Shown here one piece after another: positions 4,687 through 46,575 of a stretch of DNA of 64,000 bases. Source of the stretch: Azorinus chamasolen (taxonomy: Eukaryota; Mollusca; Bivalvia; Cardiida; Solecurtidae); the NCBI GenBank assembly GCA_963576725.1, contig OY755242.1:30154225-30218224 (forward strand). Direction: 5' to 3'. Numbering within the stretch: position 1 is the first letter of the stretch; the number at the start of each line of letters is the position of its first letter. The position numbers and the translations under genes were made by a program. Under the pieces are notes generated by a model. It was given only the letters and a program-made list of their open reading frames with translations, had not been told where the DNA came from and did no database searches.

Positions 4687-5121
4687 TTAACCCTTTCCTT
4701 CATATAAATCCTTTTTCAAGCAGTTGCAAACAGAGTAGACCCAGATCAGACCCTATGGGAGCCGTCTGATCAGGGTCTGCTCTGTTTGCTAATATAATTT
4801 GATAGTTCTGTTTCTTTACTTGGCTACAATGTTCCACCTTCAGTATTTCATTGTAACTACAGTAAAACCTCTCTATAACGGCCACTAAAGTGTGTTAATT
4901 AGTTGGTATTTAGGGCAGATGGCTGCTTAAAGCAAGGTGAAAGTAAAACAGAACGCTCCTATAGAAGCGTTCTGTTTTACTTTCACCTTGCTTTAAGCAG
5001 CCTCCTGCCTTTAACACAAAATACTTGATGTAATTTAGTGGTCGTTATAGAGAGGTTTTTCTGTACTTTGTCCATGAATTTTCTGAGATTAGGAATAAAC
5101 ACAGAACAGGGAAAGGGTTAA
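4687..5121 (+). mobile_element. A2 MITE carrying a nested C MITE
   Basis: TTAA at 4687 and at 5118-5121. The left part has the AGAGTAGACCCAGATCAGAC arm. The A2-specific right part (ACAATGTTCCACC, then GAATAAACACAGAACAGGG) is split at 4858 by a complete C element, with TA on both sides of it. Removing C restores a normal A2 of about 230 bp, so A2 is older than the C insertion. Confidence 0.9.
4860..5063. mobile_element. C palindromic MITE (pogo-like) nested in A2
   Basis: CAGTAAAACCTCTCTATAAC to GAGAGGTTTTTCTG, 204 bp, TA on both sides. Near-perfect arms GCTTAAAGCAAGGTGAAAG surround AGAACGCTCCTATAG. Confidence 0.93.
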
Positions 5122-5340
5122 CCCTTTACTTGATGAATATTCATGTAAGAATTATTAACTGGATACTGATTAATTGAAATTTATAATGACATTAATATTC
5201 AAGGAAATTTTTGAACATGTCACAAACTATAAAATCATTATTTTATTTTATAAATATTCTCTGCTCATCTGATCTTGGTCTATACTGTTTGCAAAGTTGT
5301 TAAAAGTCATGTCTATGACAGTAAAATGTTAAAAAAGGGT
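5118..5340 (-). mobile_element. A1 MITE sharing its TTAA with the preceding A2
   Basis: Starts at the TTAA that ends the A2 element (5118-5121) with CCCTTTACTTGATGAATATT. The core hairpin tip is lost; the GATCTTGGTCTATACTG arm remains. The right end is worn (AAAAAAGGGTTGTTAA). Confidence 0.75.
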
Positions 5341-5411
5341 TGTTAAATGCTGGATTAAAGTATTAATGCAAAAAGCACCAAAGTAGCTTTCTATATTACT
5401 GTATATATGCT

Positions 5412-5630
5412 TTAACCCATTCCCTCATATTGACGACTCTGTAAAGGTCACTTTGTAAAACCATTGTGATAAATAGAGCATTTGCTCCTATGGGAGCAAA
5501 TGCTCTATTTATCACAATGGTTTCAAACTGAAAATTTCGAAATAATTCCTTTTCTCTAGTTAATGCTCCTTTTTGGTAGATTTATTCAAAGAGGTTGTAT
5601 CTAAAAATGGCCTATGAGGTAATGGATTAA
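5412..5630 (+). mobile_element. B palindromic MITE
   Basis: TTAACCCATTCCCTC to GGTAATGGATTAA. The core is near perfect: GATAAATAGAGCATTTGCTC, CTATGG, then the inverse. Confidence 0.92.
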
Positions 5631-5639
5631 CACTTATGT

Positions 5640-5840
5640 CGCCAACTGCAAAATCATAACCTCTTGCAAACAGTTCAGATTCAGATGAGAGACTGAGTAA
5701 ACTGGTGTCTCGTCAGTATTCAAACTGTTTGACACACTGATTATGTTTTTGAAGAAACTTCACGGAAACCTGAGTCAGATGGCAAAAAGGGTAAGCATCC
5801 ACTTCTTTAGAGACTGCCATATTTGTTTCCTAAGTGTCTA
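5640..5840. repeat. Family I remnant
   Basis: Holds GTGTCTCGTCAGTATTCAAA and CTGTTTGACACACTG, the arm motif of diverged family I. Similar pieces occur at 13195-13245, 15136-15220, 15527-15597, 18958-19025, 28457-28690 and 50045-50115. Confidence 0.5.
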
Positions 5841-5843
5841 CTT

Positions 5844-6066
5844 AAGCTCTCTACTCCATGAATATTCATGAATGAAATATTGATATCATGAATATTAGTT
5901 AGATTAATTGTTAATATATCACATGGACACAGGAATTTTTGGACATTACAGAATCAGATCTTATGTATATTATATCATAAGCAAATAGAGCAGACCCTGA
6001 CCTACAGGAGTTGTCTGATCTGGGTCTACTCTGTTTGAAATGCATATTTATGGAGTAATGGGTTAA
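5844..6066 (-). mobile_element. A1 palindromic MITE
   Basis: CTCTACTCCATGAATATTCA to GGAGTAATGGGTTAA (6063-6066). Part of the core arm is lost (CCCTGACCTACAGGAG). Confidence 0.85.
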
Positions 6067-6152
6067 AGAGGTTCTACTGTCAATATAATGTAAATGATTT
6101 ATATATTCTGTAAATTCTGTTCTTGGCCCAAATGTATAATAGTATATTGAAT

Positions 6153-6396
6153 TATTCCTTTACCTGTTAGAGATGCATTTTTTGCATTTGCAAACAAAGT
6201 AGACCCAAAAATCAGATAGCTCCTGTGGGATCTGTGTCTGTTCTGTTTGCTTATGAAATAATACAGATCTGATTCTACAGTTTCTGCAAACGTAAAAACA
6301 ATTCCTTGTTCATAGATGGTTATAAAAAAAATTAGCTAATTGATATCCGTAAAGTTTATGATTTCTCACATGAATATGCACCAGGTAAAGGGTTAA
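6153..6396 (+). mobile_element. A1 palindromic MITE
   Basis: Arms GCAAACAAAGTAGACCC and CTGTTCTGTTTGC around CAGATAGCTCCTGTGGG. The right end is GGTAAAGGGTTAA. Confidence 0.82.
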
Positions 6397-6808
6397 AAAA
6401 AGACATTCTAGAAACTGGACATCCTATTATGTTTGTATAATGATTTACAGAAAATTAATTTCTGTAAAGATTCATTGGAGTGGAATTTGTGTGATGGTCT
6501 TCTGTATTAAGCAGGTCACATTGTAAATTCCAAGTCAAGGCAACCCTAAGCAATGAATACTGTTCAAAATAGATATAAATTTATACATGTGCTGCTCTCT
6601 GGGAAAAGTGGTATTATTGTATGAATGAAACTTGAAATGATTTATACGTATACCATAGCTTTAAAAAAAAATTTTTTAATCAACTGATTAGTTTTCACTT
6701 ATTTGAGTTTATTAGGCGAAGTCTGACCTGTGACATATTTCCAGTTGTATTGTACAAATCTTCTTCATGAATACTCAGCAGGCTGTATACACATGCTATA
6801 TAATCTCT
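6397..6808. other. Unassigned AT-rich sequence
   Basis: Nothing recognisable apart from homopolymer stretches near 6661. Confidence 0.5.
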
Positions 6809-7049
6809 AATAAACACTCCCGGGTGTGCTCTTTGTAAAAGTACACTAAATGTAGGTGGTTGCTAAATGCAGAATGAAAGTAATGCAGAAGCTCCTGTGG
6901 GAGTTTTCTGCCTTGCTTTCAATCTGCATTAAGCTATCACCTGTATTTTGAAAACCTACATTTCTTTATCTAATGGTTATCATATAGGGTTTTAGTTGTT
7001 TTATTGATCATTAGTTTCCCCACAGAAGTAGAGGGGTGTTTATTAGATT
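6809..7049. mobile_element. J palindromic MITE, distinct termini
   Basis: Outer inverted ends: CTCTAATAAACACTCC at the left, GGGGTGTTTATTAGATTG at the right. The centre resembles D/H: TAAATGCAGAATGAAAG, AAGCTCCTGTGGGAG, and the inverse ending GCATTAAGC. The same central module sits here under a third kind of end. Confidence 0.7.
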
Positions 7050-7084
7050 GGGGACCTTTATCAGGGAGAATATCAATTAGTAAC

Positions 7085-7280: not shown

Positions 7281-7333
7281 TAAATACAATTGCAATCAAA
7301 TTAGATTGCACAGGGTAAACACTTCATTTCTGA

Positions 7334-7579: not shown

Positions 7580-7621
7580 ATATAGCTTTCCATGGGCAAA
7601 ATAGGTATAAGTTTTGCAAAT

Positions 7622-7756: not shown

Positions 7757-7773
7757 CACCTTGCTTATGATTA

Positions 7774-9190: not shown

Positions 9191-9194
9191 AAAC

Positions 9195-9450: not shown

Positions 9451-9489
9451 GCAGTCACCTTTAAAGACATTATTTATCCATACATTGGT

Positions 9490-10085: not shown

Positions 10086-10088
10086 TCT

Positions 10089-10330
10089 TTAACCCTTTAT
10101 TCCATAAATACACCATTCTACACCTTTGCAAACAGACTAAACCCAGATCAGACGGCTCCTAGAAGAGCCGTCTGATCATGGTATGCTCTGTTTGCTTTTG
10201 GAATAATATAAATCTACAGTTTCTACAATGGTAAACTCTTTTGTGATCATCAACCATTATGAAAATTAATCAAATTTATATTCATGATGTCATTATTTCT
10301 CACATGAATATTCATGGAATAAAGGGTTAA
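10089..10330 (+). mobile_element. A1 palindromic MITE, both TTAA ends intact
   Basis: TTAACCCTTTATTCC to GGAATAAAGGGTTAA, 242 bp. The core is CAGACGGCTCCTAGAAGAGC followed by CGTCTG. Confidence 0.93.
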
Positions 10331-10398: not shown

Positions 10399-10617
10399 TT
10401 AACCCATTCCTTCATAGGTTATTTTTAGACTCAACCTCTTTGAATAAATCTACCGAAAAGGAGCATTTACAAGAGAAAAGGAAAACGTTAGCATTGTGTA
10501 GTATTGAAACCATTGTGATAAATAGGGCATTTTCTCCTATGGAGCAAATGCTCTATTTATCAAAATGGTTTCAAGAAGTGACTATTACAGCAGCGTATTT
10601 ATGAAGGAAAGGGTTAA
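10399..10617 (-). mobile_element. B palindromic MITE, both TTAA ends
   Basis: TTAACCCATTCCTTC to GAAGGAAAGGGTTAA. The core GATAAATAGGGCATTTTCTC meets the inverse GCAAATGCTCTATTTATC. Confidence 0.92.
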
Positions 10618-10652
10618 GACTATTTATGTAAGAAATTATGATATAAATAATA

Positions 10653-10859
10653 CAGTAAAACCCTGCTAATGCGACCACCCAAAAGAGGTATAATTCTTGG
10701 TGATAGATGCAGGTGGTAGCTTAATGCAGGACAAAAGTAATGCATAAAGTTCCTAGAGGAGCATTATGCATTACTTTTGTCCTGCATTAAGCTACCACCT
10801 GCCTCTACTACCCAGAATTATATCTCTTTTTGGATGGTCACTTTAGAGGGGTTTTACTG
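10653..10859. mobile_element. D palindromic MITE, complete with TA flanks
   Basis: CAGTAAAACCCTGCTAATGC to TTTAGAGGGGTTTTACTG, 207 bp. Arms GCTTAATGCAGGACAAAAG surround AGTTCCTAGAGGAGC. Confidence 0.93.
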
Positions 10860-11055
10860 TAACATGTTACATAGTGTAATCCAAGTTAGGAGGGAGATGT
10901 CTATTTGTCTCATTTTGCAGTGAATTACTTTTTTCATATTATACTTTCTGTTGGAGAAATTAGTTCTACCTTTACATACAGTGGATGTTTCATGTAAAGT
11001 TAATACATTGTTTGCAGTTGTTAATGGTGTGGACTTGTCTAATTATAATATAGCA

Positions 11056-12128: not shown

Positions 12129-12355
12129 TTAACCCATTCCCTCATAGGATATTTTTGGACCAAACCTCTTTGAATAAATCTACCGAAAAGGAGCATTTAC
12201 TAGAGAAAAGGAAAAGTTAAGAGTTGTGTAGTATTGAACCATTGTGATAAATAGAGCATCTGCTCCTATGGAGCAAATACCCTATTTATCACAATGGTTT
12301 CAAAAAGTGACTTTTACAGAGGCAAAGAAAGGTGTATTTTTGGAGGAAAGGGTAA
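12129..12355 (-). mobile_element. B palindromic MITE
   Basis: TTAACCCATTCCCTCATAGG to GGAGGAAAGGGTAAA. The core GATAAATAGAGCATCTGCTC meets GCAAATACCCTATTTATC, with three arm mismatches. Confidence 0.9.
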
Positions 12356-12642
12356 ATCACTAAATTGCCAGTAGCATCTTAAATATTAAAGGCAAAGGTA
12401 CTCTAGAATTGGATTGTTCACTCTGTCTACCAGTTATTTCAGTTGTAGTGAAATCCGCCGTGTTTTTAGTTGCTCAATGTTTCTTCACCGGTGAAGATGA
12501 TTTTGTTTTTCTGCCATTTTATTCCAATTCATTGTTTGACATAAGAGAATGAGTGTTTATATTATCTGTTAGATCCAATATAGACTGTCTTGGTATAACA
12601 TATTAAGGACATGTACTCAACTTAATAATTCTTACCTTTAGC

Positions 12643-12891: not shown

Positions 12892-12946
12892 TCTAGTGAT
12901 GAGTTTATGATTACCTGCACAAATAAGTTGGGATTCAGATGAAATG

Positions 12947-13188
12947 TTAACCCTTTCCTTCATATGAATTCTTTTTCACGTGTTTGCAAAGAGAGTAGAT
13001 CCAGATGAGATGGCTCCTATAGGAGCCGTCTGATCTGGGTCTGCTCTGTTTGCCTTTGGAATTTGATATATCTGTTCCTTTAGTTTCTAAATTTGATACA
13101 ATGTTCCACCTTTCATATTTCATTATAACTATTTTGCCTATGGGTATTCAGTAGGTATTGAAATTTGGAATAAATAAATAAGGGTTAA
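12947..13188 (+). mobile_element. A2 MITE, both TTAA ends
   Basis: TTAACCCTTTCCTTCATATG to GAATAAATAAATAAGGGTTA plus A. Core GATGGCTCCTATAGGAGC followed by CGTCTGATC. The A2-specific part holds ACAATGTTCCACC. Confidence 0.92.
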
Positions 13189-13320
13189 GGAACTCAGCAT
13201 CTCACCAGGATTCAAACTGTTTGACAATCTTACTGCATTTTTATGTGGCGTGATTAGGTTAACACTTTTTCAGTTTTTGTATGCTTTCGCCATTTGTTGG
13301 CATGAAAGAAACGTTTCTAG

Positions 13321-13569
13321 TTAACCCTTTCCCTCATATAAACGTGTTTTCACGCATTTGCAAACAGAGTAGACCCAGATCAGACGGCTCCTAGAGGAGC
13401 CGTCTGATCAGGGTCTGCTCTGTTTGCTAGTGGATTTTGAAAAAATGTTTCTTTACTTTCTGAAATGGCGACAAAGTTCCACTTTCCATATGGAATTCTA
13501 ACTATATTGTACATGAATATTCAGTAGGTACTGAAATTTGGAATAAACACAGAACAGGGAAAGGGTTAA
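13321..13569 (+). mobile_element. A2 MITE, near-consensus copy
   Basis: 249 bp including both TTAA. The 68-nt core has arms identical except for two positions (GTAGACCCAG in one arm, GCAGACCCTG in the other), around GACGGCTCCTAGAGGAGC. Confidence 0.95.
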
Positions 13570-14449: not shown

Positions 14450-14561
14450 AATCTTGGTAAATATTTTATCGCTAAACCCTATCTTGCCTCTCTAAGGTGA
14501 TTCACATGAGTTGCAACAAGATAGGATTTGGTTGAGAAATAAGATTTTGATACATTAGTAA

Positions 14562-14787
14562 AGTAACACCTCTCTAAACTGGACATTCAATATAGTGTAA
14601 ATATCGGTCTTGGAGACAGGTGGCAGCTTAATGCAGGGTGAAAGTCATGCAGAGAGCTCCTCTAGGAGCTTTCTGCATGACTTTATGACTTTCACCCTGC
14701 ATTAAGCGGCCACCTGCCTAAAAGTATCACAAATCTTCTGCTAGAATTCCGGTTTAGATGGGAGGGGGGGGGGGGGGGGGGGTTACT
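14562..14787. mobile_element. H palindromic MITE (pogo-like)
   Basis: ACACCTCTCTAAACTGGAC at the left; TTCCGGTTTAGATGGG and TTACTGTA at the right. Arms GCTTAATGCAGGGTGAAAG surround AGAGCTCCTCTAGGAGC. The right terminus is interrupted by the poly-G run at 14764. Confidence 0.85.
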
Positions 14788-14880
14788 GTACACCTCTTAT
14801 CTACATCTCTGGGTGTAACTATGTGTAAGCAGAAAATCTGTAAAATTTCATGTTGTTAACCTTTAGCATGCTGTGATTAA

Positions 14881-15942: not shown

Positions 15943-16217
15943 TAGCAAAACCCTTCTAAACCAGAATTTTAGTAAAACCCTTCTAAACCAGAATTGTAGT
16001 AATTATGAATTTAGATCTGTTTAGGCATGTGGCTGCTTTATGCAGGGTAAAAATAATGAAAGTATGATGATAATTTGAAGATCAGGGTCTGAGCCTTTGG
16101 CTCAAATCTGACCAATCAAAAGCTTGAGAACTCAGATCTGACCAATCAAAAGCTTGAGAACGATCTCAGACTCAACTAAAAAGCTTTATAAGCATGGACC
16201 CTGGTTTAGAGAGGTGC
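15943..16217. mobile_element. H MITE interrupted by a G element
   Basis: AAAACCCTTCTAAACCAGAA occurs twice (a 26-bp tandem duplication), followed by TTTATGCAGGGTAAAAAT. The right flank GGTTTAGAGAGG resumes after the G element (16083-16203). Confidence 0.7.
16083..16203. mobile_element. G inverted-repeat MITE
   Basis: CAGGGTCTGAGCC to AAGCATGGACCCTG. The module CTGACCAATCAAAAGCTTG occurs twice in tandem. Copies also lie at 29009-29190 and 53756-53922. Confidence 0.85.
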
Positions 16218-16458: not shown

Positions 16459-16534
16459 CCTAGAGCTGTAGATAAGAGGGGTACATAGGAAGTCTAGGTG
16501 AAACAGTTTTCAAATTTCCCCACCAAACCCTATA
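16459..16534. mobile_element. F MITE left half, cut by C
   Basis: GCTGTAGATAAGAGGGGTAC, then TTTCCCCACCAAACCCTATA, where the C element begins. Confidence 0.75.
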
Positions 16535-16738
16535 CAGTAAAACCTCTCAATAACGGCCACTAAATTGTGTTAATCAGTTGGTATTTAGGGCAGATGGCTG
16601 CTTAAAGCAAGGTGAAAGTAAAACAGAACGCTCCTATAGGAGCATTCTGTTTTACTTTCACCTTGCTTTAAGCAGCCACCTGCCTTTAACACAAAATACT
16701 TGATGTAATTTAGTTGCCGTTATAGAGAGGTTTTACTG
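16535..16738. mobile_element. C palindromic MITE, near-perfect
   Basis: 204 bp, TA on both sides. AGAACGCTCCTATAGGAGC is followed by the inverse arm through CTTTAAGCAGCCACCTGCC. Confidence 0.95.
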
Positions 16739-16759
16739 TACATGTATTTATACTACTCA

Positions 16760-18449: not shown

Positions 18450-18636
18450 CTCTTATCATGAATATCTATTATAGTGACCTATAATTGACCATGGCAGTAA
18501 CAGTATAATCAGATCTATATTATCCCGTACGGATACAAAGCAGACCCTGATCAGACGGCCCCTACATGAGCTGTCTGGTAGGAATCTTCAGTTTGCAAAG
18601 GAATGAAAAGTGTGTCTGTGGTAAAGGATTGAATAA
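18450..18636 (-). mobile_element. A1 MITE, truncated left
   Basis: GCAGACCCTGATCAGACGGC, CCCTACATGAGCTGTC, then GGTAAAGGATTGAAT. Confidence 0.75.
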
Positions 18637-18877
18637 CCCTTTCGGCACCAAATTTCTAATTGTCGTCTGCAATTCAAGTTTGTTAATCATTCAATAAAAT
18701 AAGGAAATGAGATAAATAAATGCAAATTTCAAAGAAATAAAGCACATATATAGAAAAAGAGATTGAGACAAATAGTGTAGTCCCTGATCAGACGCCGCCT
18801 TGAAAATGCGGCGTCTGATCTTGGACTGCACTATTTGTCATGGTGCATTTATGCGACTGCGGCGGTGAAAGGATTAA
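18632..18877. mobile_element. L palindromic element with a GCCGC core
   Basis: AATAACCCTTTCGGC to GGCGGTGAAAGGATTAA. The core TGATCAGACGCCGCC, TTGAAAAT, GCGGCGTCTGATC uses GCCGC where A uses GGCTCC. Flanking arms are CAAATAGTGTAGTCC and GGACTGCACTATTTG. Confidence 0.85.
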
Positions 18878-20605: not shown

Positions 20606-20823
20606 TTAACCCATTCCCTCATATTGACCTTTGATGACTGTCAAAGTCACTGTGAAACCATCCTGATAAATAGAGCATTTGCTCCTATAGGAGCAAATGC
20701 TCTATCACAATGGTTTCAAACCACAGAATTCTAAAATTTTCCTTTTCTCTAGTTAATGCTCTTTTTCGTTAGATTTATTCAAAGATGTTGTATCTAAAAA
20801 TACCCCATGAGGTAATGGGTTAA
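20606..20823 (+). mobile_element. B palindromic MITE
   Basis: TTAACCCATTCCCTC to GAGGTAATGGGTTAA. The core TTTGCTCCTATAGGAGCAAA is intact; eight bases of the right arm are deleted. Confidence 0.92.
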
Positions 20824-21871: not shown

Positions 21872-22099
21872 TTAACCCATTCCCGCATATTGACGCCTGC
21901 TGGCGCCTCTGTAAAAGTCACTTTTGGAAACCATTCTGATAAATAGAGCATTTGCTCCATAGGAGCAAATGCTCTATTTATCAGAATGGTTTCAATACTA
22001 CATAATTCTAAAAAATCCTTTTCTCTAGTAAATGCTCCTTTTTGGTAGATTTTTTCGAAGAGGTTATGTCTAAAAATAGCCTAAGTGGGAATGGGTTAA
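21872..22099 (+). mobile_element. B MITE with a covarying arm change
   Basis: TTAACCCATTCCCGC to GTGGGAATGGGTTAA. The arms read CATTCTGATAAATAGAGC and GCTCTATTTATCAGAATG. Other B copies have CATTGTGAT and ATCACAATG, so both arms changed together. Confidence 0.95.
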
Positions 22100-22455: not shown

Positions 22456-22731
22456 TTAACCCTTTCCCCGTTCTGTATTTCGGCCAAATTTCAACACCTA
22501 CTAAATATTCATTAACACAACAGTTATAAAGAAATATGGAAGGTGGAACATTGTAGACATTTTATGGAAGGTGGAACATTGTAGACATCTTAGAAAGCAA
22601 AGAAACAGATCTATCAAATTCTATTAGCAAACAGAGCAGACCCTGATCAGACGGCTCCTCTAGGAGCCATCTGATCTGGGTCTATTCTGTTTGCAAATGC
22701 GTGAAAACATGTTTATGAGGGAAAGGGTTAA
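22456..22731 (-). mobile_element. A2 MITE with an internal 28-bp duplication
   Basis: TTAACCCTTTCCCCG to GGGAAAGGGTTAA. GGAAGGTGGAACATTGTAG occurs twice in tandem. Core GACGGCTCCTCTAGGAGCC, then ATCTGATC. Confidence 0.93.
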
Positions 22732-22833: not shown

Positions 22834-22868
22834 AAAATCACATGAGGTTTGTTTTTGTCATACATATA

Positions 22869-23142
22869 CAGTTGAACTAAAAGTTCGGATCTTCCAAAAT
22901 CCTTCCAAATTTCTCTATTTTTAAAATGTATCACTACACATATCTAGAAATACATTTCACAGCCTAATGCAGTTCTACAGTAATGCTGAAAGCTCCTGCA
23001 GGAGCTTTCAGCATTACTGTAGATCTGCATTAAGCTATGAACTTGAGAAATTGTCCAGATTACAAATCGGATAACTCGAACTTCTGTTATCTCGAACTAA
23101 TTTATATAGTCCCTTGAAGTTCGAGATATCGAAGTTCAACTG
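22869..23142. mobile_element. E palindromic MITE (pogo-like), complete
   Basis: CAGTTGAACTAAAAGTTCG to CGAAGTTCAACTG, TA on both sides, 274 bp. Core AATGCTGAAAGCTCCTGCAG followed by its inverse. Confidence 0.93.
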
Positions 23143-23506
23143 TACATGTATATAAGTATAATTTCTCAAAGCAGTTTTATTTCATTTTATGTGACCTGTA
23201 CAATGATAAAATGGTATATGGCAGAGCTAACAGTATAGACCTATATCTGCTATTAGTACATCTCTGATACTGATTAGAACTGCCTAAAGAAATTCTAATG
23301 AGAAGCACCAAGACTGGGTTTGGTTAAAGAACATCAAAAATATTTCACTTTGATTTCCTAAATATGTCTCTCATCTACATCTCTGAATCCAGATCAGTTG
23401 TGTGTTGCATACTTAGCTGTTTGTCTGAGTTTACGCTGTTTGCAATGCACTGATATCAGTTTTCTCATAGAACAGCTACTACTTTGAAAACTTATATCAA
23501 GTCATA

Positions 23507-23698
23507 GCTACAGATAAGGGTGCGTACCCAAATACTAAAATCGTCATTTCTCCACCAAACCCCATACTGCGACCACTCTTTAGAATCGTCTCATTGAGAC
23601 GATTCTAAAGATTGGTCACAATAGAGGGTTCAGTGGAGAATTAAAGGAGTTATATTTGAAAATGTAACTTTACGCACCTTATCTGCACCTCTGATGAA
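23507..23698. mobile_element. F inverted-repeat MITE, best copy
   Basis: CTACAGATAAGGGTGCGTAC to TTACGCACCTTATCTGCACC. Centre TTTAGAATCGTCTCATTGAG, then ACGATTCTAAAGA. Subterminal TTTCTCCACCAAACC meets GGTTCAGTGGAGAA. Confidence 0.9.
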
Positions 23699-23942: not shown

Positions 23943-24364
23943 TCAACCCTTTACTTGATAAATATGCCTTTGCAAATAGAGTAGATCCAGATCATAAAGG
24001 TCCAATAGAAGCTGTCTAATCAGGGTCTGCTATCTTTGCTAAACCCGTTACTCCATAAATATGCCACTCTATGCCCCTGCAAACAGAGTAGACCAAGATC
24101 TGACAACTCCTATAGGAGCTGTCTGATAAGGGTCTGCTCTGTTCGCTAATGATATAATATAGATATGATTCTACAGTTTCTACCAAGGTCAAAATTTCCT
24201 GTGTAAATGTACTATAATAACAAAGCAATCTAATTGATATTCATGATGTCATTATTTCTTACATGAATATTCATGGAGTAAAGAGTTAATAATACAGATC
24301 TTATATACAGATACTGCCACTGCCATGTTTCACTTGCCCATAATGCCATTATAAAAGATCAGTT
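23943..24364 (+). mobile_element. A1 MITE split by another A1
   Basis: Outer copy: ACCCTTTACTTGATAAAT to GGGTCTGCTATCTTTGC (24041). It resumes at AATACAGATCTTATATACAG (24290) and CCATTATAAAAGATCAG (24364). The inner A1 occupies 24040-24289. Confidence 0.85.
24040..24289 (+). mobile_element. A1 MITE nested in A1
   Basis: AAACCCGTTACTCC to GGAGTAAAGAGTTAA. Core GACAACTCCTATAGGAGC, then TGTCTGAT. Confidence 0.88.
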
Positions 24365-24612
24365 AACCCTTTCCCTGTTCTATGTTTATTCCAAATTTCA
24401 ATACCTACTGAATATTCATTAACAAAATAGTTATAGAGCAATATGGAAGGTCGAACATTGTAGACATTTTAGAAAGCAAAGAAACAGTTCTATCAAATTC
24501 TATTAGCAAACAGAGTAGACCCTGATCAGACGGCTCCTCTAGGAGCCGTCTGATCTGGGTCTACTCTGTTTGCAGATGCGTGAAAACACGTTTGTATGAG
24601 GGAAAGGGTTAA
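24363..24612 (-). mobile_element. A2 MITE, near-consensus, 250 bp
   Basis: TTAACCCTTTCCCTGTTC to GAGGGAAAGGGTTAA. The 68-nt core at 24506-24573 has one arm mismatch, around GACGGCTCCTCTAGGAGC. Confidence 0.95.
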
Positions 24613-24633
24613 TCGATATTCAAAATGTTATTA

Positions 24634-24778
24634 CAGTGGAACCTGTCTTAAGTGGCCATCATAAAGAGGTCTAATTATGGGTCTGTAAGGTAAGGTCAAA
24701 AGCACTGCATTAAGTAACCACCTTTTTTAAGAGTCCCATGTTCAATAAATGAATTGCCTCTTAGGACAGGTTCTACTG
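24634..24778. mobile_element. D MITE lacking its central hairpin
   Basis: CAGTGGAACCTGTCTTAAG to CTTAGGACAGGTTCTACTG, TA on both sides. The core tip is deleted between GGTCAAAAGCACTG and CATTAAG. Confidence 0.88.
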
Positions 24779-24845
24779 TATCTCACATGAATATTAACAA
24801 ATACACGGTTATTGGGTCAGAACTCTTTTACACGGTTATTGGCTC

Positions 24846-25401
24846 AGAACTCTTTACTCCATATACAGTGGAACTTCCATATCTAAAACTCAGATAACTC
24901 CACCTTCTGGATAACTCGAAGTAAAAATTTGGTTCTTCCAAAATGTACAATACAGAATTCTTCTAAAAACATATCACTACCAATATCTAGAAACACACGT
25001 GACAGCTTAATGCAGGTCAAAAGTAATGCTGAAAGCTCCTGCAGGAGCTTTCATCATTACTTTCAACCTGCATTAAGCTGTGAACTTGAGAAATTGTTCA
25101 GACTTTAAAAATCGGATGACTCAAACCTCTGTTATCTCGAAATATTTTGTATTGTCCCTTGAAGTTTGAGATACCGAAGTTCAACTGAATATCCATGCAA
25201 GAAATAATGACGTCATGAATATTAATTAGCTGAATCTTTATAAAGGCATATGAACATCTGACATTTTAGGCAATGACTGAAACTAAAATAAGATCTGTAT
25301 TATATCATATTAGCAAACAGACCAAACCCTGCTCAGACAGCTTCTACAGTCTACTCTGTTTGAAAAGGCATTAATTGATGTATCTATGCAGTAAAGATTA
25401 A
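24846..25401 (-). mobile_element. A1 MITE carrying a nested E MITE
   Basis: ACTCTTTACTCCATA, then E (24866-25187), then TATCCATGCAAGAAATAATG and on to CAGTAAAGATTAA. The left flank has the 30-bp module CACGGTTATTGG.TCAGAAC in tandem duplicate (24805-24850). Confidence 0.88.
24866..25187. mobile_element. E palindromic MITE nested in A1
   Basis: CAGTGGAACTTCCATATC to CCGAAGTTCAACTG. Core GCTGAAAGCTCCTGCAGGAG, then CTTTCATC. Confidence 0.92.
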
Positions 25402-25421: not shown

Positions 25422-25674
25422 CATTGAACACTTTCCCTGTTCTATGTTTATTCCGAATTTAAATACCTACTGAATATTCATGGACAACATAGTTATAACA
25501 AAATATGAAAGGTAGAAAATTGTAGCAATTTTAGAAAGTAACAAAACAGATCTTTCAATTTCCATTAGCAAACAGAGCAGACCCTGATCAGACGGCTCTT
25601 ATAGGAGCCGTCTGATCTGGGTCTACTCTTTTGGCAAATGTATTAAAACACGTTTACATGAAGGAAAGGGTTAA
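25422..25674 (-). mobile_element. A2 palindromic MITE
   Basis: AACACTTTCCCTGTTC to GAAGGAAAGGGTTAA. Core GACGGCTCTTATAGGAGCC. Confidence 0.92.
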
Positions 25675-26264: not shown

Positions 26265-29200
26265 CTGAAATATATAATAATAAAGTATTGGGTGCAGGTG
26301 TGTTATTTACTTTATTTCCTTAAAACTTTATTCTATACAGACACCGTTTAATGCCTTTGCAAACAGAGCAGATTCAGATCAGATCCTACAGGAGCCATCT
26401 GATCAAAGTCAAATATGTTTGCTTATGAAATGATATAGATATAATTCTACAGTTTCAGACATGGCCAAAACATCTAGTGTACATGTTCAATTTTAAAAAT
26501 TAATCAAATTAATATTCATGATGCCATTGTTTCTCTTACATGAATATTCATGGAGTAAAGGATTAACCTATTTAATCCTTAATTTCTATTAACCATTTAG
26601 CCGAGTCCAATCTCTGTTTTTTGCTTTCTAAAATGCTTTCAACTTTCCCACTTCCATATTTCATTATAATTATTTTGTCCATGAAAGTTCAGTAGGTATT
26701 GAAATTTGTAATAAACATAGAACAGGGAAAGGGTTAATCATTTAGCTGAGTCCAATCTCTTTGGAAGGTTGTAAACAGATGGAGTAAAGCATTAACCCTT
26801 TCCCTCATATAAACATGTTTTCACGCATTTGCAAACAGAGTAGACCCAGATCAGACGGCTCCTAAAGGAGCAGTCTGATCAGGGTCTGCTCTGTTTGCTC
26901 ATGGAATTTGATAGATCTGTTTCTTTAGATTCTAAAAGGGGGCTACAATGCTCCATTTTCAATATTTAATTACATGTATAACTATTTTGTCCATGAATAT
27001 TCAGTAGGTATTAAAATTTGGAATAAATATTGAGCAGGGAAAGGGTTAAAGAGCATTTGTCAACATATGTATGGTTAGCCAACCTCCATTTTCATTTGAA
27101 AGTGTGTTTGTTTTATCAAGCAGTGTAGATCCTGATCAGATGTCTCATTCAGGAGCCCTCTAATCTAGGTCTATACTAATTGCATATATCTCTATTAACC
27201 CTTTCCTCCATAAATACGCCTTACTATGCCTCTGTAAAAGTCATTTAATGAAACCATTGTGATAAATAGAGCATTTGCTCCATAGCAGCAAATGCTCTAT
27301 TTATCACAATGGTTTCAAAATTACACAATTCTAACATTTTTTCTTTTCTCTAGTAAATGCTCCTTTTCTGTAGATTTATTGAAAGAGGTTGGGTCTAAAA
27401 ATAGCCTAAGGAGGAAAGGGTTAAGAAATACATGCATTATATGTTACATTCTTTTAATTCAGAAACAAAATTATCACACTTGTGCATTAATGCAGGAAGA
27501 AAACAGCATGTATTTTGAGATTTACAATCCATGATGTTTACCATGACAACATGAGGATTAAACACTTGATTTCAATTGGAAGTGAAAATTCCTGTGTTTG
27601 ATCATGGATTATTCTATAAAATATAACAGCCTGATGTTTGTCATTAACTCATTATCTGATGAACATTCACGTTTTCCCAATTTACTCCATGAATATTTAT
27701 GCTCCAATAAATGCCATGATCTAATCAGTTTGTTTGTTTGTTATTGGAGTTTAACGTCGCTTCAACAGTATTAGAGACATATCGTGATGTCCAGCTAATT
27801 ACAGGTGGAGGAAGAGCCCACATATTTTCTGTGCACTGAACAAATTGTATTGTCTCATGCACAAACCTACAGTAAGCCAACTGGAAAGCCATCTGATCAG
27901 CGTCTACTCTATTCATAAATGTGCCAAATGGTGTCTCTACTGAGTAATGGGCTAAAAAATGTCATTATGAATATTTTATTAAACAATTATCTATAATGGT
28001 ATACATGTATATGAACACAGAAATGGGCATGCACAAACTCTTGAATCACATCTACCGGTATATATTGACATAAACAAAACCCATAGTTCTCTCTACTAAT
28101 AAGAACTATTTTGCATTTGAAATACTTGAGTTATGATTCATTCAGAGGCTATTTTAAGATCTAACCTCTTTGAATAAATCTACCGAAAAGGAGTATTAAC
28201 AAGAGAAAAGGAAAATTTTACAATTTTGTAGTTTGAAACAATTGTGATAAATAGATGTTTATCACAATGGTTTCAAGAAGTGACTATTACAGAGGCGTAG
28301 AAATGCGTATTCTATATGCGTATTTATGGAGGAAAGGGTTCAGTAACTTAGTCTTTAACCAGATCCAAAGAATCTAACAATATGAAAATGCTTTGTATAG
28401 AAATAAAGGGAAGTCCTACTTTAACTCTTTTTACATGAGCTGTGAATTTGTGATAACCTATGCAAACATTATAGATCCAGTTGAGATGCCAACCTCATGA
28501 ATGAATCTACCAAAAAGGAGCATTAACTAGACAAAAGATTTTTTTTTAGAATTTTGTAGTTTGAAACCTTTGTGATAAATAGATGCTCTATTCAACAGGT
28601 GACTTTTACAGAGGCGTAGAAAGGCGTACTTATGGAGGAAAGGGTTAATTGGTGGTTCATTTAGATTCAAACTGTTTGACACTCTGATCCTTGAGGAGAA
28701 AAGGAAGAAAAAATAAATTTTAAGGACAGTATTAGTTTTTGCAGACCACAATTACTGAGCAAACGAAGATGACAATTTGGCAGATAATTTTACAAATAAA
28801 AGAAATACACTTTTATGTCATTAATACAGCATACCTTAATTTCCGAGGTGACACGTTCTCCTTTCTCAAGCTCCAAGAACACATGATAACAGGGAGCTGT
28901 GGCTTCTTTACCTGAAAATTTACAAGGTCAGCATGAATATTTATTAGCTGAATTTTTATAATGGTATATGTACACATGACCATTTAGTATTCATAGAAAC
29001 TGTTTAATCAGGGTCCCTGCTTATAAAACTTTTAGTTGAGTCTGAGTACGTTCTCAAGCTTTTGATTGGTCAGATTTGAGCCTCTGGCTCAAATCTGACC
29101 AATCAAAAGCTTGAGAACTCAAATCTGACCAATCAAAAGCTTGAGAACGAAACTCAGACTCAACTAAAAGCTTTATAAGCATGGACCCTGATCTATTATA

Positions 29201-32200
29201 ATTTCACAGGCAAACAAAGCCTATTCGGTTTGCAAAGATATGAAAAAGCTTTTGTATGATGAATAGGTTCAACCTTTGAAACCTTTATAAACAGAGTAGA
29301 ACTAGATCACAGCATTCCTATAGAAGGCACATGAGAGTAGGATCTGCTACGTTTCCTTACATATTACAGATCCTGTTTGCCATGGTAATACATTTTATTA
29401 TTTTCTATTTCTAATACAACAAGATGTGTTTGTGAAACACTATGCCCTATATGTTTGCCTCCATAAGTTGCACATGCATGCAAACTTTAAAGTATGTATG
29501 TGCAATGGCAACAAAACTAGTAATTTGACCTTTGACTTTGATGTATGACCTTGTCCTTGATAAGTCATGCCAAGTTTGAAGTATTTATGCTGAATAGCGA
29601 CAAAATTATCTTCAACGATAAAGTTGAGGACAAAAGGACAAACCAACTAACACAAACCAACAAACAAAAACAATATTCCCCCCTTCTAATTAATGGGGGG
29701 GGGGGGGGGGGGGGGGGGTTTGGTTAAAAATAATATATATGATGGGCAGAATAAAAGGGTTAGTACAGCCAAACTTAGGTTAAGAAGTTCCTCAAAGCTC
29801 AAGCTAGCTAAGATAACTTCAAATATGGCAGCTGAGGTCGACAATATATATACAGTAAAACTCCTCTGAACCGGAATTCTAGTAGAGAAGAATTGAGAAG
29901 TGTTTAGGCATGTGACTGCTTAATACATGGAGCTTTCTGCATGTCTTTCACTCTGCTTTAAGCTGCCACCTGTCTTCAAGACCGTTAGTTATACTAAATT
30001 GGACGTCTGATTTAGAGGGGTTTTACTGTACATACATACAATAAAGCCTCTCTCTCAACTTGTCACTCAAACAAGTGTCAATGTCAGTCCTTCACCCATT
30101 ACTCCATATAAACAACTGTCACTATCTTTGCAGCATTCTGTTCAAGGTCTGTTCCGTTTCCTTATGGAATTATATAGATCGGATTCTACAGCTTCTGCCA
30201 TGCTCAATAATTCACTTTTCAGCAGTTAACTGTCAGACTGGACTGAGAGATTTCACTAATGTCCAGAAATGTGCCTGGCCACTGTAATACACAATTTATT
30301 ACCTGTAGTCGTCCTGGCATCTACCATGAGGCTCTCTGTGCCACAATAGTCCACCATGTTTACCCCGGATTTCTGTATTGCAGCTGTTACTGCATCGTAA
30401 AACACCGCCTCTGATATCTTCTCTCCCCTAACATTAAAAAACTGCCCCTGCCTGAAATGATTGTGATAATTAGAAGTACTAAAACCTCTTTAAACACAGG
30501 CATTTTGGCTTGATTTTTGTAAAACTACTTAACCCTTTCCTTCATATAAACGCCTTTTCACACCTTTGTAAACAGAATAGACCTAGACCAGACCGCTCCT
30601 GCAGGAGCCGTATGACCAGGGTCTGCTCTGTTTGCTTATGAAATTATACAGATCTGATCATACATTGTTTGTGTAAGCCAACACTTCCCTTTTAATGTTT
30701 ACCTTATAAAAAGTAAGTTAATGAATATTCGTGAAGTGATCAATTCATGCATAAATGTTCAACAGGGAAATGGTAAAATTACATTAATGAAACACCAAAG
30801 TATGCTTAGACATTATTGTTAACAAAACATATTTAATTTTTATATTAATATAAGAAAATGTAAGATTCTTTAACAGAACATACATGTATTTGATTTTTAT
30901 ATTATTATTAGAAAATTTAAGATTTTTTTATTTTATAAAAAAAATATATATATATCAATGTTTGACTCTGCAATTCTTTTTCTCAGCCATAAAGTTCATG
31001 CACAGAAAACTAACAGAACCTCCTGTATCTCAACATATGAATAAAGGTCTCTCTAACTTTGAGAGAGCAATGTTGGACAGTATGATGTCTTACCCTACCT
31101 GTATTGGAACTCTATTACTGGACAGGTATTATGATGACCCACAATCTTGATGACATCACCAAACCGGTAACGGTAAAACCCACTGGCATTAGTGATGACC
31201 ATCTCATACATACGATCTTCCTCCACCTAAAACAAGAGAAATTTGAACTGCAATTTAAACGTGGTACAAACTACACACATCCAGTAATTTAACCCTTTCC
31301 TCCATAAATACGCCTTTCTACGCCTCTGTAATAACCACTTCTTGAAACCATTGTGATAAATGGAGCATTTGCTCCTATAGGAGCAAATGCTCTATTTATC
31401 ACAATGATTTCAAACTACAAAATTCTAAATTTTTCCTTTTCTCTAGTAAATGCTCCTTTTGGGTAGATTCATTCAAAGAGGTTGGGTCTAAAAATAGCCT
31501 ATGGAGGAATGGGTTAAAGCTGTAGATAAGACATGTACTGATCTATTAATCCTTTCCCAGTTGAATATTCATGTGTAATAATGACAATATGAATATTTAT
31601 AAGCTAAATTTTTATAATGGCATGTGCACACAGGAGTGCTGGTATTGATAAAAACTGCAGAGTTAAATCTATAATAGTTTCATAAGAAAACAGAGACGAC
31701 CCTGATCAGACAGCTCCTACCAGTGTTTGCAAAGGCATGAAAAAGCTTTTGCATGAAGGAAAGTGTTAAAATATCTAGCTTCTCTGACAGCCGAACCCAA
31801 TCTTGCTGCTACTCATTCGAATCGTCTACCTGGGGCTATACTAATGAGTAGCAGCAAGTTAGGGGTTGGCAGTTTTACAGTAAAACCTCCCTATAATGAC
31901 CACTAAATTGTGTTAATTAGCTTGTATTTAGGGCAGGTGGCTGCTTAAAGCAAGGTGAAAGTAAAACAGAACGCTCCTATAGGAGCATTCTGTTTAACTT
32001 TCACCTTGCTTTAAGTAGTCACATGCCTTTAACATAAAATACTTTATGTAATTTATTGGCCATTATAGAGAGGTTTTACTGTATATCAGAACTAATTCTA
32101 AAAATTTGAAATATACATCCTATTGATTAGAATAATTTTTATTCTAGTTCATGATCACAAGAGTTTTAACCATGACAGAGACGGTAGAATATGATTATTC

Positions 32201-35200
32201 TATTTCACAAGTAAACACAGGACACTGGTGTGGGTCTACTCTGCAAATGCATGAAAAGGCATTTATGTCAAGTAAAGAGTTTCAAGGTAAACTCCATCAT
32301 TCAAATTCTAATTCATGATGTTAATCTCAGAATTCTACTAAAAGAGTAATAGTATGTTTATGTAACTACAGTTTTTCATTGTGCTGATATACCAAGGCCA
32401 TAGTAATATCTCACCTTGTGTCTAGTGAAAAGTTATGCAAAAGGAAGTCAAAACTTTTCCTACCTCATCCATGAAGAGTGTCTTTGGTTGGTCCTCCTCA
32501 CAGTTTTGTACAGGTATAAACTCAAAGAACATGGAGTTGGGAGCCAGTAGATATCTACTTGGTCTTTCTTTTGGCCAGATATTGATTCCCAGCAATCCTT
32601 CTGAAGCAGCATACAAGGGTGAATAGATGGGAGTGTCTTTACAATAGATATCGCGCAATCGTTGTCCGTAGATTTCAAATGTTCCAGAGTCAGCAGACAT
32701 AACCATGTTCAGCCTTGGCCATATTCGTTTAGCCAGGCCTGTTTGTCCTGCATCTATTGCTTTCCGCAGTTCTTCCGCCCTTGTAGGATCTGGAGACATT
32801 CCCTTGTTTAGTTCTTTCTTGACGCTTTCATCTATTTCAAGACTTTCACTAACACTGCCTTTTTCTATATCTTGAACCAGAGAGTCATAGTTAATCACAA
32901 GAGATCTGAAGGCCGAGTACACCAAGGAGGCGAAATTGGCCTCTATGATTCCTAAGTTCTTGTTCTTCAAACCAAACAAAAGATGGATATACATAGCCTC
33001 TGGCTCAGACATAATGTCAAACCCTGCTTTGGGGGTTGAATACATATTCAGTATTCTTTTTGAGTTGGCAGGAGATGAAGAGTTGGGTCCAATCTGTATA
33101 CCACATTCAGATGTTCTCATTCTAGGTGTATAGAAGAACTTCATGTCCTTCTGTGAGCTTGTTGACCCTGGGAAGGCTTGCCGAATGCAGTCATAGACTA
33201 CGCTTATGCCCTGAACGAAGAACAAACCCTGCTGTTTCTTTATCATGGGTAAAACAGCACTTTTACCTGAGGTTCCAGAGGTCACAGCAAAGATGACAGG
33301 ATCATCTGCAGTCATTACTTTCTTCTCCCCTTTCATCATCCTTTGGATGTATGGTTCATAGTGGGGATACCTACAACAAAATGAGATACATGATGTCAAA
33401 GTCAATTTTTTCCCTATTAGGTATCGCAATGCCTTCCGATCAAGTGAAACCAATTTTTTCCTAGAGCAGTAAAAATCTACTACAGCATCTGTTACAGAAA
33501 CTTAGATATTAAATTATTAATGCATTCCCTCATAGGCTATTTTTAGACCCAAATTCTTTGAATAAATCTACTGAAAAGGTGCATTTAATAGAAAAAAGGA
33601 AAAGTTTAGAATTGCAGATATTTAGTTTTGAAACCACTGATATAAATAGAGCATTTGCTTCTGTGGAGCAAATGCTCTATTTATCACAATAGTTTCAAAC
33701 AAGAGCTGTCGGCAGACAGCGCACTCCTATTTCTTTAGTGCTGGATAGTGTAGTGGAAGTCTAAGTCGAAAAGGGGAGATAACTATAGCAAAATTAATTT
33801 TAGGGTTACCTGCTCTTGTGAAATGAGTCCCCCTTGTAATAGTTAACATGCATACCAACTTTGAACCAAATATCTTGGACAGTTTCTGAGATATGGACCT
33901 TAACATACAATGAAAATTCTAAGTCGAAAAAGAGGAATAACTATGGCAAAATTAATTTAAGGGTTACCTACCCTTGTGAAATGGGTTCCCCTTGTGCTAG
34001 TAAATATGCATACCAAATATGAGCCAAATATCTTTGATAATTTCTGAGAAATGGACCTTAACAAAAAGGTTAACCAATGCCGACGCCGTGAGGGTCATGA
34101 CAATACATCCACTCTTTGAAAAAGTGGAGGTAAAAATGACTTTTAGAAAGGCATCAAAATGAGGGAATGGGTTAACCCTTTACTTCATGATAATTTTTGT
34201 AAGAAATAATGACATCATGAATTTAATTAATGGTATATGAACACAGGATGTTTTGACTCTGGCAGAAACTGTTGAATCAGATATGTATGTGTTATTTCAT
34301 GAGAGAACACAGCAAACCCTGATCAGACAACTCCTGTAAAGGCATTATCAGACGTATACAGGCCTATTCTTGAAAATATCTTAATTTACCCATCTTATCT
34401 AGGGTTCTGGATTTAATAGGGTCTGTTTATGTGTTACAGATCTGAGTCTCTACATTATGCCATGGCAATAAATTTCTATGTGTTATATTTTAAGACAAGA
34501 ATTAAATTAATTAATGTTCATAATGGGCAGATGCTGGCATGAATATTCATTAAGTAAAAGATTACTGTTATTTTAACCCTTCGCTTGCTGAATTTTAAAA
34601 TACATTTCTCCTTCTTTACCCATGCCCTGTTGTATAATTACAAATATATTCACTGTGTACACGTATATCGCTGTGTAATCACTGCTGCGGAGTGCACTGG
34701 TTGCACAATCAACTTGTAAATTGTGCAGACCCTGATGAGACAGCTCCTGCAGGAGCTGTCTCATCTGGGTCTTCACTATTTACAGGTAGGTATATTGACG
34801 TGAATAGCAAGCGAAGGGTTAAGAGTGAAATTCAGAATCTTTATTTTAGCCTTTTCAGTGTGGGACATGCATCACTAATGTCCTTTGCAAGTAGTGTAGA
34901 CCCAGATGAGAGGGTTCCTAGAACAGCCCTCTTAACAGGGTTAGCACTGTTTGCCATATTACACTTTTTCTTTAGAAATAATCCCTGAAGATTGACAGTA
35001 AGCTTGCTTGAATTTTGGAATACTGGACCAGGTAGTCCATTTAAAAATTCAGGCACAAACCTTGTAAGAGGGTGAGCTTTCACAAAGTCTTCCCTCGTCT
35101 TGATTTCAGAGAACTTGTACTTCCTCCCATACTCGGTCTCTGCATTCTCCTTCATTCTGGCCATCAAGGTCTCATGCTGGGCCTTCCTAACATCCCTTGT

Positions 35201-44800: not shown

Positions 44801-44859
44801 AACAAGACTTTGTCCAAAATAGATCTAATTTGCCAAGACATGCCATCTAAATTTCTATA

Positions 44860-44985
44860 TTTCCCGGGGGAGGTCCCCCGAACCCCCGCCGGTGGGAGGG
44901 GGAACCCCCTCCCACACTCTCCCCCGCTCGGCACTTCGTGCCTCGATGTGCGTATGATTTTTAAAACCCTGGCTACGCCTATGCA
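44860..44985. mobile_element. G/C-rich element terminus
   Basis: CCCGGGGGAGGTCCCCCG, GGTGGGAGGGGGAACCCCCT, then TTAAAACCCTGGCTACGCCT. It could pair with the terminus at 40820, but no target duplication is visible. Confidence 0.55.
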
Positions 44986-45525
44986 ATCGGCCTGGGGACG
45001 AAGATCATTTTTACTTTTTTATCATTCGAAATGTTAGAGTTATTTTTTCTTTACTAGTTACTGATCAATGTCAGTAAAACGCTTATTGGTCGAAGTGCAT
45101 ACTGCTTTTTGTAGCTATGCTATAGCGTCTTGAAACGTCATTCCCGTCATCTTAATTTTGCGACAATGTTTCCTCGCTTAATTAATACATGCGGTATTTG
45201 TGGAAATGCAGCAATTTGCATTTTGACACGACTGGTTCCTGAACAAATTATTTGCTAAACTCCAGTATAGCAAAAACTGGAACCAACTCGTGATTACGTA
45301 ATTCGGGTGTTCTCCGCTGGGAGTTCCCCTGATTTGTCCATACTAAAATAGGCCAAGCGTAGACCACAGCATGACAGGTGGCCTGTCTGTGTAGATAACT
45401 AAAAGATAATCTCCCCGAGGTAGGAAAATATCAGTCACTAAAAATTGCCTTCGTAAAATTCAAAGCGGTAGATCTAGCTGAAAACTAAAAAGGGGCCCAT
45501 TAACAAAAATGGTATCTTGGCAGCC
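44986..45525. other. No feature recognised
   Basis: Mixed-composition DNA, with no supportable call. Confidence 0.4.
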
Positions 45526-45590
45526 AGCTGGGGGGGGGGGGGGGGGACGGGCCCCCGAGCCCCCCCACCTGGGTACGGGCCTGTAATGTA
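45526..45590. mobile_element. G-run element terminus
   Basis: CAGCTGG followed by 16 G, ACGGGCCCCCGAGCCCCC, ACCTGGGTACGGGCCTG. Confidence 0.65.
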
Positions 45591-45604
45591 TGTGTATATA
45601 TGCA

Positions 45605-45925
45605 TGTACAACAAGAGAGACATGGTGGCCCTGATATCGCTCACCAGACAACCAGAGGAAAAGATTTTCAAAGTTATCACTAGATCTATATGTTTCTATA
45701 GAAAACTGGCCGTCCCTGGGGCGGGACCTCATTTGACCCCAGGCACATGATTTATATAATTTTTGTACAGGACTTCAGGACAATGTTATGTGCCAAATAT
45801 AAAAACTGAGAACCTTCCGGTTTCAGAGGAGAATAACTTCAAAGTTTTCACAATAGGTTTCTAGATAAAACAAGGTACCTCTGGGACACGATCAATTTTG
45901 GCCCAGGGGCATAATTAAGTTAGCA
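45605..45925 (+). repeat. Minisatellite-type element, two units
   Basis: Border CAAGAGAGACATGGTGGCCC then CGCTCACCAGACAACCAGAG. Units contain AACTGGCCGTCCCTGGGG and GCATAATT; the same family as 55683-56900. Confidence 0.75.
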
Positions 45926-45959
45926 TCAATGCTTGGGTGGCCAATAGTATACCCGAACT

Positions 45960-46040
45960 TTACCGAAGTTTGCAATGATCAAGGCTGTTTGCATGGCTCA
46001 TTTGGCAATCATCAAGGCTGTTTGCACGGCTCAGTTGGCT
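45960..46040 (+). repeat. Short tandem duplication
   Basis: ATGATCAAGGCTGTTTGC.CGGCTCA-type unit of about 36 bp, twice. Confidence 0.7.
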
Positions 46041-46367
46041 AAGCCTATGCTTTTAAAGTTCGATTATCTTAAACCCTTGCCGGCTATTCGCGACAAATAT
46101 CTTTCGCAAAGAGCTCCCAAGGATCCAGATCAGATGCTGAGCAACTCGACGTCTAATCCAGATCCATGCTGTCCGTAAATCGGTCTATTGTTTCGCAACG
46201 TTGGCTGATTTCGGACACTTTTAAAATGAAGCAGACGAGAGTTTCAGCAGACAACATTAATTGCTGTAGGCGAGGGGTTAATTACTTTTATTAACTTGTC
46301 AATTGTTAACAGTAAGAGTCACGATTTGACTACTCCCAACACTGATGGGGTATTGTACATGTATATA

Positions 46368-46575
46368 CAGTAGAACCCCTCTAAACCGGACGTTAAAGTT
46401 GGTATAGATATCGGTTTTGGAGACAAGTGGCAGCTTAATGCAGGGTGAAAGTCATGCAGTAAGCTCCTCTATATAGGAGCTGTTTGCACGACTTTTACCT
46501 TGTATTAAGCAGCCATCTGCCTAAAAGTGTCTAAATTCTTCTCTACTAAAATTCCGGTTTAGAGGAGGTTTACTG
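46368..46575. mobile_element. H palindromic MITE, complete
   Basis: CAGTAGAACCCCTCTAAACC to TTTAGAGGAGGTTTACTG, 208 bp, TA on both sides. Core TAAGCTCCTCTATATAGGAG, then CTG. Confidence 0.93.

Follow-up and report, generated by a model that had tools for sequence, protein, structure and literature searches.

We analyzed a 64,000-nt stretch of the genome of the bivalve Azorinus chamasolen (contig OY755242.1, positions 30,154,225 to 30,218,224; the whole stretch is called the window). It contains short elements, miniature inverted-repeat transposable elements (MITEs), and many of them carry a palindrome of 14 bases, GCTCCTNNAGGAGC (GCTCC-TNNA-GGAGC; the core), which forms the tip of the internal hairpin. 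The elements were sorted into two pools, one with TTAA target sites (families A and B) and one with TA target sites (C, D, E, H, J, and K, together the C-group). K (3685–3893) was added here. The other labels come from a preliminary description of this DNA.

The core palindrome and its elements

The window contained 18 exact copies of GCTCCTNNAGGAGC, versus 0 in shuffled sequences. With up to 2 mismatches, 48 places were found, versus 0.96 in shuffles. The core ranked first among perfect 6+NN+6 palindromes, and the runner-up had 5 copies. A hairpin scan independent of the core gave 41 hairpins in the window and none in three Markov-generated sequences. The core (up to 2 mismatches) was present in 23 of these 41, and in 28 once a B form contracted by one base was counted. 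Cores were also found beyond position 46575 (47593, 49087, and 49919). In the genome of 1,723,440,353 bases (1.72 Gb), the exact core occurred at 389,419 places, about one per 4.4 kb, versus 58 places for the reversed pattern. A 200-kb genome sample (20 stretches of 10 kb at fixed coordinates, labeled L0nn) contained 68 hairpins, with both GCTCC and GGAGC near the tip in 31, one of them in 14, and neither in 23.

The preliminary description placed the core at the center of well-kept copies. The 18 exact and 48 near matches agree with this, but only two of its seven quoted examples were exact, those of E (22992–23005) and H (14656–14669). The examples of A (10155), C (4955), and D (10749) had one mismatch, and that of J (6891) had two. 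The B example quoted at 27270 was not a 14-mer; it reads GCTCCATAGCAGC, a 13-mer with a further mismatch. A second palindrome, CATGAANNTTCATG, had five exact copies in the window (2067, 5857, 10303, 24262, and 26539), one of them within the TTAA element 10089–10330.

A elements are about 250 bp long, with TTAACCCTTTCC..GGAAAGGGTTAA ends and GCAAACAGAGYAGACCCWGATCAGACGGCTCCT arms. They matched 58 non-redundant places in the window (E up to 1e-5) and 128 in the sample. B elements have TTTGAAACCATTGTGATAAATAGAGCATTTGCTCCT arms, and their ends are related to the A ends, which they resembled in the end comparison. Among 32 candidate TTAA end pairs, some of which overlap or span a nested element, 22 had TTAA at both ends, the search pattern itself starting with TTAA and allowing up to 2 mismatches. 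The core (up to 3 mismatches) or a contracted core was enclosed by 25 of the 32. The piggyBac-type terminal motif CC[C/T]T (PMC2872659) was seen as CCCTTT or CCCTTC in A and some B elements, and other B ends, CCCATT, fit it loosely. The genome gave 110 matches to the piggyBac transposase domain DDE_Tnp_1_7 (best E 4.8e-94). Ten listed B copies had three exact cores, one with one mismatch, five one base shorter, and one degenerate. Because most were contracted or degenerate, the B tip is firm only for GCTCC/GGAGC.

The C-group elements have arms near GCTTAAWGCARG..AAAGTAAWGCAGAANGCTCCT. The inner arms of C, D, E, H, J, and K aligned over about 40 bp (shuffle p 0.0005–0.001). The ends of C, D, H, and K were mutually alike, and the E ends matched each other and, weakly, one H end. 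In C and D copies, both ends carried TA; K, one H, and one E copy departed from this by one base at one end. Pogo/Tigger elements have TA targets and a CAGT terminal motif. The preliminary description assigned TTAA ends to A and B and CAGT ends to C, D, E, and H, and both were present in the window. The genome gave 151 matches to the pogo-type transposase domain DDE_1 (best E 2.0e-49). In the 20 of these 151 loci that were covered (about 3.5 kb each), no autonomous parent with a full C-group arm was found, and the best local score was 16/40. J had been said to have a third type of end. Its ends (6807–6820 and 7033–7046; one copy in the window) matched each other (p 0.004) and none of the other ends tested clearly (best p 0.024). 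A 149-bp pogo-like element at 24632–24780 resembles K and has apparently lost one hairpin arm and the tip.

Arms, ends, tips, and hybrids

Because C, D, E, H, and J share homologous inner arms, the seven quoted family cases reduce to three arm types: A, B, and C-group. The earlier statement that arms and ends do not match was thus too broad, as the inner arms align across the C-group, the C, D, H, and K ends resemble one another, and so do the A and B ends. Common ancestry of the inner arms accounts for the core throughout the C-group (C, D, E, H, J, and K), which the preliminary description overlooked. This leaves three arm types in two pools.

Arm typing was applied to 120 of 123 sampled cores, the other three being too close to the end of a stretch. 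The typing is lenient, as 267 of 1500 random positions (18%) also received a type. The 29 exact cores with room for typing were 14 A, 11 C-group, 3 B, and 1 A/B, and the 31 cores with one mismatch were 20 A, 9 C-group, and 2 B. No fourth arm type was found among these 60 sampled cores. Among 60 cores with two mismatches, 15 lay outside the three types, and 14 of the 15 came from a 24-bp tandem array on GCTCCNAGAAGAGC (L012, 916–1413). In the window, 47 of 48 cores had at least one typed arm, and four of these had only one.

The same internal region was found under different ends. A hairpins occurred with ends of the 13321 type and of the 34573 type, which do not match each other, and C-group hairpins occurred with C/D/H/K, E, and J ends. 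The left end of the A-type element at 10089 scored 29 with B 31289, 26 with B 27195, and 17 with A 13321. A-like arms also occurred with other tips, CCGCCTT or CCGAGT, in the sample and the window. Of 16 arms with these tips, 14 matched A at p up to 0.009; both arms at L023 3835 did not. The CCGCCTT family has CCCTTTCGGCRCC-like ends, and the CCGAGT family apparently has CTTTAGCCTGCT ends. Therefore, the core tip is not fixed on A-like arms. The CCGCCTT family of TTAA elements without core was also seen at L011 2256, L013 1042, and L023 8429, with the tip once reading ACGCCTT. CCGAGT-tip hairpins lay at L009 3490, L012 2377, L018 4768, and L023 3835, with A-like arms in three of the four.

Hybrids joined at the core were detected. 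In L019, a hybrid runs from TTAACCCC near 296 to TTAA at 565 (about 270 bp), its A half being joined to its B half by an exact core; it reads as a complete TTAA element. Genome-wide, the exact A/B pattern CAGAYRGCTCCTNNAGGAGCAAATGC occurred at 43 + 57 = 100 places, and the exact B/C-group pattern GCATTTGCTCCTNNAGGAGCNTTCTG at 24 + 30 = 54. The reversed-pattern controls gave 0 for both. The bases after the core in the 54 B/C-group places were GTTCTG in 25 and TTTCTG in 22 (the C and D forms), CTTCTG in 5, and ATTCTG in 2. The CTTCTG form is one change away from the A arm. One hybrid among 29 sampled exact cores far exceeds the genome-wide ratio of exact hybrids to cores (0.04%), which may be luck, or the exact patterns may miss most hybrids. 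No clear hybrid was found among the 48 core hairpins of the window typed by arm; the hairpin at 4091 scored mixed, 11 to 10, and reads as A. The hybrids are joined at the tip; therefore, exchange at hairpin tips is real.

In A copies of the window, conservation was 0.89/0.87 for the core, 0.90/0.89 for the stem, 0.87/0.90 for the ends, and 0.74 for the spacers. In the sample, core and stem values were 0.83/0.84 versus 0.87/0.86 for A (128 places), 0.90/0.93 versus 0.96/0.94 for B (27 places), and 0.88/0.89 versus 0.84/0.83 for the C-group. Thus, conservation of the core did not exceed that of the stem in A (window and sample) or B (sample) and was slightly higher in the C-group, where the core also ranked 2 of 47 six-column windows between window subfamilies. 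The NN of the core was palindromic in 15 of 49 A copies versus 17.4 by shuffling, as in a loop. Example single strands were predicted to fold into a single hairpin whose loop has four bases (z −12 to −15). Paired double changes in the stem outside CpG reached 1.94 times the expectation (0.73–1.52 in 16 shifted registers), and this co-variation may come partly from shared subfamily history.

Table 1. Elements of the window with their cores
Element	Positions	Strand	Core	Remarks
A-type TTAA element	13321..13569	+	13387–13400	hairpin 13360–13427
A-type TTAA element	26792..27049	+	26858–26871
A-type element	12946..13189	+	13013–13026
A-type TTAA element	24363..24612	-	24533–24546
A-type element	25425..25674	-	25595–25608, 1 mismatch
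A-type TTAA element	22456..22731	-	22654–22667
A-type element	30529..30777	+	30595–30608
A-type hairpin	10089..10330	+	10155–10168, 1 mismatch	left end nearer to B
A-type hairpin	34573..34822	-	34743–34756	other TTAA ends, CCCTTCGCTTGCT
B-type TTAA element	5412..5630	+	5484–5497, 1 mismatch
B-type TTAA element	20606..20823	+	20681–20694
B-type element	49007..49234	+	49087–49100
B-type element	31289..31517	+	31371–31384
B-type element	27195..27424	+	contracted, GCTCCATAGCAGC
B-type element	10399..10617	-	contracted, TCTCCTATGGAGC
B-type element	12129..12356	-	contracted, GCTCCTATGGAGC
B-type element	21872..22099	+	contracted, GCTCCATAGGAGC
C element	4858..5065		4955–4968, 1 mismatch	TA + CAGTAAAACC ends; flanked by the two parts of an A copy
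C element	16533..16740		16630–16643
C element	31876..32083		31973–31986
C element	47496..47705		47593–47606, 1 mismatch
C element	49822..50028		49919–49932, 1 mismatch
C element	62071..62258			without tip
D element	10651..10861		10749–10762, 1 mismatch
H element	14559..14790		14656–14669
H element	46366..46577		widened, GCTCCTCTATATAGGAGC
K, C-group element	3685..3893		3783–3796, 2 mismatches
E element	22867..23144		22992–23005	its two CAGTTGAACT ends fell in two separate end pairs
E element	24864..25189		25035–25048
J, C-group hairpin	6807..7046		6891–6904, 2 mismatches	unclassified inverted ends CTAATAAACACYCC
TTAA-like element, A-like arms	18633..18877		no core	tip CCGCCTT; other ends

Other features of the window and database searches

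Two open reading frames (ORFs) with GH3 domains (PF03321; 32422–35287, minus strand) flank the A-type MITE at 34573–34822. The ORF at 56984–58666 matches fucose pyrophosphorylase (PF07959), and its best named relatives are from the bivalves Mercenaria, Sinanodonta, Potamilus, and Mactra (56–57% identity). No transposase domain was found in Pfam scans of 4 of the 8 start-to-stop ORFs of at least 110 aa and 10 of the 42 stop-to-stop ORFs of at least 85 aa, with one locus common to both sets. These scans gave one match below cut-off, PF20511. No window match was found in Rfam at gathering scores. GTDB genomes and IMG/VR, which presumably hold little animal DNA, gave 0 matches.

Tandem arrays with a period of about 145–160 bp lie at 1–935, 47919–48710, 59372–59751, and 60703–61175. 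Nested inverted repeats at 51896–52789 consist of 293-nt arms (84%) enclosing a fold-back whose own arms measure 138 nt (96%) and whose loop measures 6 nt; no core is present. A recurrent hairpin, GACCACTCTTTAGAATCGTCTC, with arms unrelated to A, B, and C-group, was seen at 23593 in the window and at L012 1716, L020 6299, and L027 6480. Another hairpin family, GCTTTTGATTGGTCAGATTTGAGCC, was seen at 29050–29118 and 53813–53881 in the window and at L018 4987. Tandem duplications of 30 bp accompany it at 29088 and 53783, and a similar duplication lies at 16101.

Origin of the shared tip

Inside each arm type, core and stem are inherited together, and most of the pattern is inheritance of modular hairpins. 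We consider it probable, by a narrow measure, that modular MITE hairpins in two pools inherit the tip with the stem and that the tip came to be shared between arm types via old tip exchange or a common hairpin. The elements are non-autonomous DNA transposons, piggyBac-like in the TTAA pool and pogo-like in the TA pool (C, D, E, H, and K, with J placed there by its inner part), each pool presumably being mobilized by its own transposase. Ends, stem arms, and tips act as modules: the same kind of arm is found with several ends, A-like arms carry no fewer than three tips, and a single tip is common to three arm types. Among these types, the tip most likely passed by old exchange at hairpin tips or came from an old common hairpin. 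The likely step is template switching or recombination between neighboring elements at the shared palindrome, and the first spread of the tip may have used the same process. Recombination at hairpin tips had been proposed in the preliminary description. Exchange at hairpin tips, also between pools, happens, as the 100 A/B and 54 B/C-group hybrids with empty controls indicate; it is rare and perhaps only a consequence of the shared core. As the origin of the shared tip, exchange is the best reading. A wider proposal is tentative, and we lean against it: a pool of exchangeable MITE hairpins would cross superfamilies, with GCTCC-TNNA-GGAGC spread by tip exchange and now marking about 389,000 places. 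If the tip did spread across superfamilies by exchange, then the hairpin descends along a line separate from that of the transposon ends.

Several results weigh against this favored reading of old exchange or a common hairpin. Exact hybrids are rare (154 versus 389,419 cores), and the shared core may itself have given rise to them as a side effect, for example by deletions between neighbors. The hybrids of B and C-group were identified by pattern matches, the pattern fixes only TTCTG past the core on one side, and a few of these places may represent A/B hybrids that carry a point change. Homology of the A, B, and C-group arms was not established by Smith–Waterman, in-register, or unrelated-arm comparisons. 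Smith–Waterman scores outside the core gave p 0.06–0.96 for A versus B and C-group (B–C 0.007; B versus others 0.3–0.94). The in-register tests covered 83 of 104 arms (gapless, at least 24/36 matches), with 28686 left out beforehand. They gave 0.37 for A–B (outer half alone 0.004) and 0.058 for the triple; the values for A–C, B–C, A–D, and B–D were 0.03, 0.04, 0.12, and 0.42, respectively. Unrelated arms attained 13–14/30 matches as well. Finally, joint inheritance of the tip by A and B would leave only the C-group match to be explained, a coincidence of 4% at 11 lineages.

This last figure comes from a chance model run for 11–13 lineages, in which 29082 and 54027 were not counted as separate because they are related. 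A six-base tip common to any pair, within one register step, arose in 4.0, 5.4, and 6.1% of trials at 11, 12, and 13 lineages, respectively, and one common to any triple at 0 to 0.0006 across runs. For a five-base tip, the values were 17–22% for any pair and 0.4–0.75% for any triple. Each pool might therefore have inherited its own tip, with the match due to chance and the hybrids to later recombination at chance homology. The pair values (4.0% at 11 and 5.4% at 12 lineages for six bases; 17–19% for five), a B tip firm only for GCTCC/GGAGC, and the want of firm arm homology across pools favor such a coincidence. However, with A and B independent, a tip shared by all three types would be a very improbable event (0–0.0006 for six bases, 0.004–0.0075 for five), and A is not bound to keep the core tip, because A-like arms carry others. 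We rate coincidence as unlikely but a serious contender.

Convergent selection is improbable in our judgment. It supposes that, whatever the pool, a GC-clamped stem with a TNNA loop promotes RNA processing, amplification, or fold-back. The single-hairpin folds, the stem co-variation, and the better-kept core of the C-group are consistent with it, and stem-loop models of MITE amplification have been published (PMC8268682). The earlier suggestion of selection on the 14-mer thus keeps a weak footing in the C-group. In A and B, however, the core was not above the stem, the related CCGCCTT and CCGAGT families use other tips, and a clamp would not require identical bases. The preliminary description also raised a mobile palindromic seed. 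As a free unit inserting into elements, it would fit the position of the core at the hairpin center in elements of different pools. The arm typing speaks against it: none of the 60 sampled cores with 0–1 mismatch lay outside known arms in this lenient test, the two-mismatch exceptions were nearly all in one array, and 47 of 48 window cores had a typed arm. We regard such a seed as very improbable.

Known MITEs offer partial parallels. The bivalve elements DTC M1 and M2 of Donax trunculus, described by Satovic and Plohl in 2017, reportedly have a long imperfect central palindrome and no sequence in common with each other. MITE-like repeat 1 of the hemoglobin genes of the bivalve Lucina pectinata is described as a 210-bp element in which imperfect terminal repeats of 30 bp enclose a central palindrome of 77 bp; by this description, C (208 bp) is close to it in size and plan (PMC4732748). 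The CMITEs of Acropora corals are piggyBac-like, with TTAA targets, CCCTTT ends, and about 100 bp including a 75-bp internal region (PMC2872659). They are like the present elements in having modular internal regions under different terminal repeats. Between CMITE families, conservation is higher in the internal region than at the terminal repeats (PMC2872659), whereas the two were alike in A (hairpin 0.86–0.90, ends 0.86–0.93). All CMITEs are of the TTAA type, whereas here the tip also occurs in TA-type elements, so the set was not filed as CMITE. Neither sharing with a second superfamily nor joining at hairpin tips appears in the accessible part of the CMITE text (PMC2872659). Beyond CMITE-like modularity, the new points are the scale, a single tip found on three arm types in two superfamilies, the different tips that related arms carry, and the hybrids with their junction at the tip. 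A full-text literature search found no shared core in print, repeat databases being outside its scope; the papers it listed for sequence strings had unrelated titles.

MITEs are classed by their ends. If hairpins and tips cross end types and superfamilies, end-based classification hides a second line of descent. A 14-base palindrome every 4.4 kb would then be a genome-wide recombination site, and the hybrids make the exchange of hairpins and tips directly testable.

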